This document shows, piece by piece, positions 47,401 through 48,013 of a stretch of 64,000 bases of DNA (positions are counted from its first letter, which is position 1; every line of letters begins with the position of its first letter). The DNA is from Albula goreensis (taxonomy: Eukaryota > Chordata > Actinopteri > Albuliformes > Albulidae): assembly GCA_022829145.1 (NCBI GenBank), contig CM040746.1:27774832-27838831 (forward strand), read 5' to 3'. Made by a program: the position numbers and the translations under genes. The notes under the pieces were generated by a model. That model made no database searches. It had not been told where the DNA came from and saw only the letters and a list, made by a program, of their open reading frames with translations.

Positions 47401-48013
47401 TGACTGACATCTGTCTCTTTTATTTTGTCATCTTAGGAGACAGACCAGCTGGAGAGTGAAAAATCCCAGCTGCAGAAAGAAGTGGCAGAGCTGCAGAAGG
47501 AGAAAGAGAAGCTGGAGCTGGTCCTGGAGGCTCATCGACCCATTTGCAAAATTCGAAACTCTGACTCAGATTCTGACTCTGACCCGGGTCTAGGGCCGTC
47601 TATCCTGAAAGCAGCCAAAACCAACACCAACAATCCCAATAAGCATGCTCATTCACCAAAGTGTCACCCCAGAACTGAGAAACCAAAACCAAAAATTACT
47701 CTCCCACCTGCACCGTACATCTCATCCACTCTGTCTGTCCAGCCATCTGAGTCTGAATCCCTGCACACTCCAATCCTGATCTCCACCCCCTCCCTGACTC
47801 CCTTCACCGCTAGTCTGGTTTTTACCTATCCCTCTGCCTCTCTAGAGGCCAACTCAGTTGCCCCCCCCCTCCCCCTCCTCCTCATCTACACTTGGTACGG
47901 CCCAGCCATCTCGAAACCCCCAGCCCTGTGGTATAGCCCATCGCCGTAGCAGCAGCAGTGGGGACCAATCATCAGACCACTCCCTCAACTCGCCTACTAT
48001 CCTCACCCTGTGA
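44071..48013 (+). CDS. fosl1: FOSL1 (Fra-1), AP-1 bZIP transcription factor, with a frame break
   Basis: Fos-family partner of Jun proteins that binds AP-1 sites. Exons: 44071-44169, 44972-45232, 47005-47112 and 47437-48013. Exon 2 holds the Fos-type [10 protein letters not shown] block. The basic region [17 protein letters not shown] (132-148) is in exon 3; the zipper follows with Leu 154, 161, 168, 175, 182 and His 189, a Fos pattern, then [13 protein letters not shown]. The tail keeps [29 protein letters not shown] sequence in part. The frame as given then runs through a C9 run (47861-47869) into unrelated sequence and stops at 47947-47949 (326 residues). One base fewer in that run puts the frame onto [20 protein letters not shown] and a TGA at 48011-48013 (347 residues), matching the conserved Fra-1 C-terminus. 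A sequencing or allelic indel is most likely. This is probably teleost fosl1a. Confidence 0.9.
44429..44453 (+). repeat. Poly(T) tract in fosl1 intron 1
   Basis: Uninterrupted run of 25 T in the 0.8 kb first intron. No adjacent retroposon body was recognised, so a simple slippage repeat is as likely as an antisense SINE tail. Confidence 0.8.
45979..46043. promoter_or_regulatory. fosl1: Cluster of four AP-1 sites in fosl1 intron 2
   Basis: Four perfect TGA(C/G)TCA elements in 65 bases: 45979-45985, 46001-46007, 46012-46018 and 46037-46043. A fifth is at 45446-45452 in the same intron. Fra-1 is known from mammals to be induced by AP-1 through intronic elements, so an autoregulatory enhancer is the natural reading. 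Confidence 0.7.
47861..47869 (+). other. fosl1: C9 run at the fosl1 frame break
   Basis: Nine C after CAGTTG and before TCCCCC. The reading frame is right for the family before it and one base off after it; losing one C restores the conserved tail. Homopolymers of this length are frequent sites of assembly error. Confidence 0.75.

Follow-up and report, generated by a model that had tools for sequence, protein, structure and literature searches.

A frame break, as assembled, ahead of the conserved C-terminal tail of a duplicated fosl1 in Albula goreensis: a probable recent allele or homopolymer miscount

The stretch of DNA analysed here, called the window throughout, comprises 64,000 nucleotides of the Albula goreensis assembly (C6:27774832-27838831; genome of 932 Mb in 208 contigs). 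It holds a fosl1 gene on its plus strand (span 44071-48013) that adjoins ccdc85b and fibp, and a second copy of the gene, referred to below as the C2 duplicate, lies elsewhere in the same genome. The features used in the argument are as follows, with positions counted from the first base of the window unless C2 is named:

36127..36315, minus strand: exon of yif1a (Pfam YIF1, 2.3e-18), a neighbour common to the C2 duplicate
44071..44169, plus strand: fosl1 exon 1, with ATG start and donor GTAAGG
44972..45232, plus strand: fosl1 exon 2, with acceptor GCAG and donor GTAAGT; a similar stretch of 34 residues occurs at the C2 duplicate
47005..47112, plus strand: fosl1 exon 3, basic region, with acceptor CCAG and donor GTAAGT
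47437..47949, plus strand: fosl1 exon 4 in the written frame, from the leucine zipper to an early TAG at 47947-47949
47861..47869, plus strand: run of nine Cs, the likeliest slippage site, within a frame switch bounded only to about 47842-47880
47869..47949, plus strand: unrelated neo-tail of 26 residues plus the early stop, in the written frame
47870..48013, plus strand: conserved C-terminal tail of fosl1, read one base later and closing with TGA 48011-48013
53623..54399, minus strand: ccdc85b (Pfam CCDC85, 2.6e-80), a neighbour common to the C2 duplicate
58452..58733, plus strand: exon of fibp (Pfam FIBP, 4.3e-24), a neighbour common to the C2 duplicate
within C2:10549737-10550462, minus strand: exon 4 of the C2 duplicate (L002), a single open frame to TGA

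The window gene has four coding exons, all open and with canonical splice sites, and four coding exons are the structure of the FOSL1 family. The joined-exon protein matches Pfam bZIP_1 at 37.6 bits (cut-off 27.6), with exon 3 alone staying below that cut-off at 26.5, and the whole protein matches c-Fos and FosB chains among solved structures (1.5e-22 to 7.2e-22), mainly as Fos bZIP pieces. Human FOSL1 likewise adjoins CCDC85B and FIBP. A search of the genome with exon 4 returned nine matches, the window counted in; the nearest other match lies on the minus strand of C2 (59% over query residues 1-146) and is followed by a fosl2-like copy on chromosome C9 (42%). As written, the destabilising tail of FOSL1 is out of frame with the zipper and is found only in the next frame; zebrafish Fosl1b, also tail-less, is still classed as fosl1 in the passages available from its description (PMC9456341).

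Exon 4 keeps the family frame through the zipper and a 15-residue stretch, and then enters the run of nine Cs, which reads GCC CCC CCC CTC in the written frame. Continued in that frame, exon 4 contributes 170 amino acids (47437-47949) to a protein of 326 residues, the last 26 of which are unrelated to the family. One base later, the tail DNA reads as 47 residues up to the TGA, and the alternative frame is open over 47846-48013, where it includes a 24-residue stretch. Both the early TAG at 47947-47949 and a shifted frame ending at TGA 48011-48013 had been claimed in the initial annotation, and both are present in the assembly. Openness of the alternative frame is unremarkable on its own (1665 of 5000 mononucleotide shuffles are also open); nor is the nine-C run odd in itself, since C/G runs of at least eight bases recur in the window (seven of the nine counted in 148 kb of sequence). 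Right behind the conserved stop, at 48085-48235, lies a long simple repeat rich in GAT/GAC.

The C2 duplicate provides the closest comparison. Because yif1a, fosl1, ccdc85b, and fibp stand in identical order around both genes, the two loci can be regarded as copies of one block that arose in a large duplication, probably that of the teleost genome. The duplicate resembles the window gene in its zipper, in the LHTP block with its 13-residue stretch, in its tail, and in its neighbours; its exons 2 and 3 were recovered as partial matches. It differs in that its exon 4 is uninterrupted: where the window has the nine-C tract, the duplicate reads CCC ACA CCC CCC TCC, with a run of six Cs, and its frame passes through the same place into 29 residues and then TGA. 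Its DQSSD motif is also one serine shorter. Exactly 5000 N occupy C2:10534131-10539130 (L012/L010), adjoining the fibp segment of the C2 block, and represent either an assembly gap or a withheld stretch.

For the tail itself, 47 amino acids from position 47870 were compared with four Fos-family tails of the same genome, using 2000 shuffles for each. In the shifted frame the scores are 163 for the fosl1 duplicate, 117 for the fosl2-like gene, and 97 and 108 for the two fos genes, and none of the 2000 shuffles attains the score for any of the four. This bears out a Fos-family tail at the place where the initial annotation saw a match to the conserved Fra-1 tail. The written frame scores 20, 28, 16, and 21 against the same tails in the same order, values reached by 1773, 148, 1671, and 866 of 2000 shuffles, respectively; the written-frame tail is thus unlike any of the four Fos tails compared. 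A Pfam search with the tail at E up to 1 gave no match, and a search of solved structures at E up to 10 returned a single kinesin stretch (E 0.024), which we take as chance. A scan of the prokaryote contig collection yielded 274 pattern matches and no relative.

The tail also carries the mark of purifying selection. Over 47921-48013, read in the shifted frame with gapped columns omitted, mismatches to the C2 duplicate number 1, 1, and 11 at codon positions 1, 2, and 3 (each out of 30). Corresponding distances to the duplicate are pN 0.03 and pS 0.54 for the tail (29 codons, one unpaired serine codon dropped), pN 0.11 and pS 0.67 for the zipper (40 codons), and pN 0.12 and pS 0.58 for the block from LHTP to FTYP (27 codons), so that, among these three parts, the tail is under the tightest constraint; it shows no visible drift since the break. 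Its last 24 residues are those of the C2 copy, bar one extra serine; relative to the fosl2-like copy they have one residue more, plus two changes held in common with C2. This pattern indicates a protein sequence that was under selection until recently. If the break is fixed, we infer as a rough bound that it dates back no further than about 10 to 60 million years; this hand calculation lets some 67 sites take on between zero and two changes, at an assumed neutral rate per site of 1.6 to 4 in a billion years, and it has no bearing on the choice between miscount and allele.

Not every Fos-family tail in this genome has the same composition. Two fos-like copies (L004 and L007) have the LNSPTLLAL end without HRRSSSS, and a fosb-like copy (L008) likewise lacks the HRRSSSS block. 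The fos-like copies are arranged as divergent pairs on two chromosomes, with about 8 kb between the members of each: L004/L005 (C9:21978152, minus; 21986165, plus) and L007/L006 (C7:32632850, minus; 32640787, plus). The minus-strand members of both pairs keep LNSPTLLAL and are without the HRRxSSSxDQSSD block.

The position of the shift was bounded by building a joined reading for every candidate switch point between the two frames and scoring it against exon 4 of the C2 duplicate. A +1 switch anywhere from codon 47842 to codon 47878 scores 513-525, as against 330 for no switch; the switch at the nine-C run, which falls inside this interval, scores 523, and the best placement 525. Switches of -2 appear among the best 22 placements with scores of 510-520, and a net shift of +1 or -2 elsewhere within about 47842-47880 fits about as well as one in the run. 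With one C fewer, 11 residues separate the shared N from LGT, the same as in the C2 duplicate, and it is plausible on this alignment that the event lies in the nine-C run. Of the initial annotation's claim that one base in a run of nine Cs breaks the frame, the run and the frame break stand, whereas the placement in the run is no more than plausible, as joins across 47842-47878 score so alike.

We consider it likely, at a probability of roughly 0.87, that the lost tail is explained by a single recent shift, either a homopolymer miscount or a young slippage allele. In this reading, the C-rich stretch around 47842-47880, which codes for proline and serine, would have undergone one net shift of +1 or -2, most likely the addition of a ninth C to the run, and this would have cut an otherwise open fosl1 off from its conserved C-terminal destabilising tail. 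The frame break in the assembly, the homology and past constraint of the tail, and the unbroken exon 4 of the duplicate are observed; that slippage was the cause, which base it involved, and what it does to the protein are inferences. The six-C run at this place in the C2 duplicate gives no guide to the ancestral run length, and this counts against the reading. Its two forms, a miscount of the homopolymer in the consensus and a real young slippage allele, are about equally probable, each somewhat short of an even chance. False coding indels are documented in vertebrate assemblies, such as that in PCDH17 of an earlier zebra finch assembly, according to part of one such account (PMC9516821). Within the present assembly, three DNA matches were obtained (the window itself, C2 at 73%, and chromosome C9 at 78% over part), and no second haplotype copy is among them.

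Whether this assembly tends to miscount homopolymers was gauged on protocadherin-type exons, by hand counts on 150 matches scored out of 1622 candidates. Among the matches listed, the open frame falls below 500 aa at 15 of 60 places in C2:0.49-1.10 Mb and at 1 of 21 in C6:25.01-25.31 Mb. Thirteen of these 16 short-frame places were read (12 on C2 and one on C6, leaving out C2:688118, 1030959, and 1092134); six have a close reference (89-96% identical), and for the other seven, at 52-78%, lesions are placed unreliably and several places switch frame more than once. Among the six, a lone single-base deletion is seen in L028 and again in L031, and a lone insertion, within a TA repeat, in L051. 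L030 has two losses of a single base, in C runs no longer than five; L052 combines a deletion, an insertion, and a stop, and L055 carries five lesions. The longest run at any readable lesion is five bases. This mixture of pseudogenes and single-base breaks neither shows nor excludes a habit of homopolymer error and, if anything, does not favour one in long runs; the readable single-base breaks are mostly deletions in short runs of at most five, while the shift needed here is +1 or -2. Large LRR exons show no inner stop among the matches listed, with many frames of 600-1056 aa, but that match list favours intact genes. The C2 region itself (L028, L030, L031, L051-L059) is a protocadherin-type cluster in which single-base breaks and pseudogenes are mixed.

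Old decay of the window fosl1 into a pseudogene could be imagined, given that a tailed duplicate is at hand to stand in for it, but is scarcely credible: the exons are open, the splice sites canonical, and the bZIP domain over its cut-off, and the differences of the tail from the C2 duplicate are nearly all synonymous. The several lesions and relaxed constraint by which an old pseudogene was to be recognised were not found. Homology, the mark of purifying selection, and a frame open to its stop together make old decay of the tail very unlikely, in keeping with the initial annotation's preference for a recent indel or assembly error. It is just as hard to credit that splicing within exon 4, through a small intron or an alternative junction, cancels the shift. 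FosB exon 4 is spliced alternatively, and 42 GT-AG pairs of at least 60 bases with the right phase exist here (acceptors after 47850 and before 47985); yet none of the 42 passes both cuts, set at six of nine consensus bases for the donor and 11 of 16 pyrimidines for the acceptor, and the C2 copy is open across the same place. A hidden intron was accordingly rejected, there being no phase-correct GT-AG pair with a fair donor and acceptor.

Expression might instead rejoin the frame, by +1 ribosomal frameshifting on CCC CCC C or by RNA polymerase slippage on the C run, and the in-frame codons of the run are of a sequence type that can slip. We regard this as very improbable: Pol II is expected to slip only rarely on a run of nine Cs, and the C2 copy reaches the tail in a single frame and thus needs no slip. 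Less remote, though still unlikely, is a short form that has been fixed as tolerated or favoured, with this copy having become a long-lived, ERK-independent Fra-1 and the C2 copy having stayed regulated. The C2 duplicate, being tailed, could take on the regulated role. Passages on zebrafish Fosl1b report a protein without C-DEST and phosphosites and suggest that it is more stable (PMC9456341), and human FOS is described as stabilised by loss or mutation of its last residues, LLAL, in part of another study (PMC12908201). Against fixation, the abandoned tail is near-identical to the last 24 residues of the C2 copy and has not drifted in a relaxed manner, so that any fixation could not be old.

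The single recent shift, whether miscount or allele, is of interest mainly because the lost tail sets protein lifetime. v-Fos and, next to FosB, DeltaFosB are longer-lived Fos proteins whose C-termini are altered or missing; their causes, a deletion in the transduced gene for v-Fos and alternative splicing for DeltaFosB, differ from a one-base shift. The mammalian Fra-1 C-terminus is described, in excerpts of PMC8946526, as a destabiliser in which phosphorylation of S252 and S265 by ERK2/RSK1 prevents ubiquitin-independent turnover. Similarly, human FOS is reported to carry a degradation signal in its last four residues and to be stabilised when truncated (PMC12908201, in part). As in the window gene, truncated FOS of osteoid osteoma, osteoblastoma, and epithelioid haemangioma keeps the bZIP and loses the C-terminal degradation signal; there, however, the cause is a somatic rearrangement with a reported effect, whereas here it is a one-base shift with a predicted one (PMC12908201, in part). 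Zebrafish Fosl1b is likewise described as a copy of fosl1 that lacks the C-DEST tail with its phosphosites and has a tailed sister gene, so a real loss here would have a precedent; it differs in that its tail is reported absent, whereas the window gene keeps the tail in the next frame (PMC9456341, in part). Among the papers listed on a fish fosl1 frameshift, and on Fra-1, v-Fos, and frameshift, no title or abstract opening was on point.

If the shift is real, its early stop lies in the last exon and the transcript should therefore escape decay. The product would be a Fra-1 of 326 residues with a normal bZIP and without the tail that in mammals ties turnover to ERK signalling, and it would probably be longer-lived and uncoupled from ERK. 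An improbable extension of this allele would make the length-variable C run a mutable switch that couples this copy to its ERK-controlled degradation tail or uncouples it, with a short-lived tailed allele of Fra-1 and a long-lived untailed one segregating in the species; if true, it would catch in progress a change that is complete in zebrafish Fosl1b. A duplicated fosl1 whose conserved tail follows one frame break is ordinary in kind, and only a real allele would make it interesting. Should the shift prove a miscount, it would serve as a caution, as annotation would give this fish a Fra-1 without its degradation tail. Should it prove a real allele, it would provide a natural whole-animal test of the Fra-1 C-terminal destabiliser, with the tailed duplicate as control.
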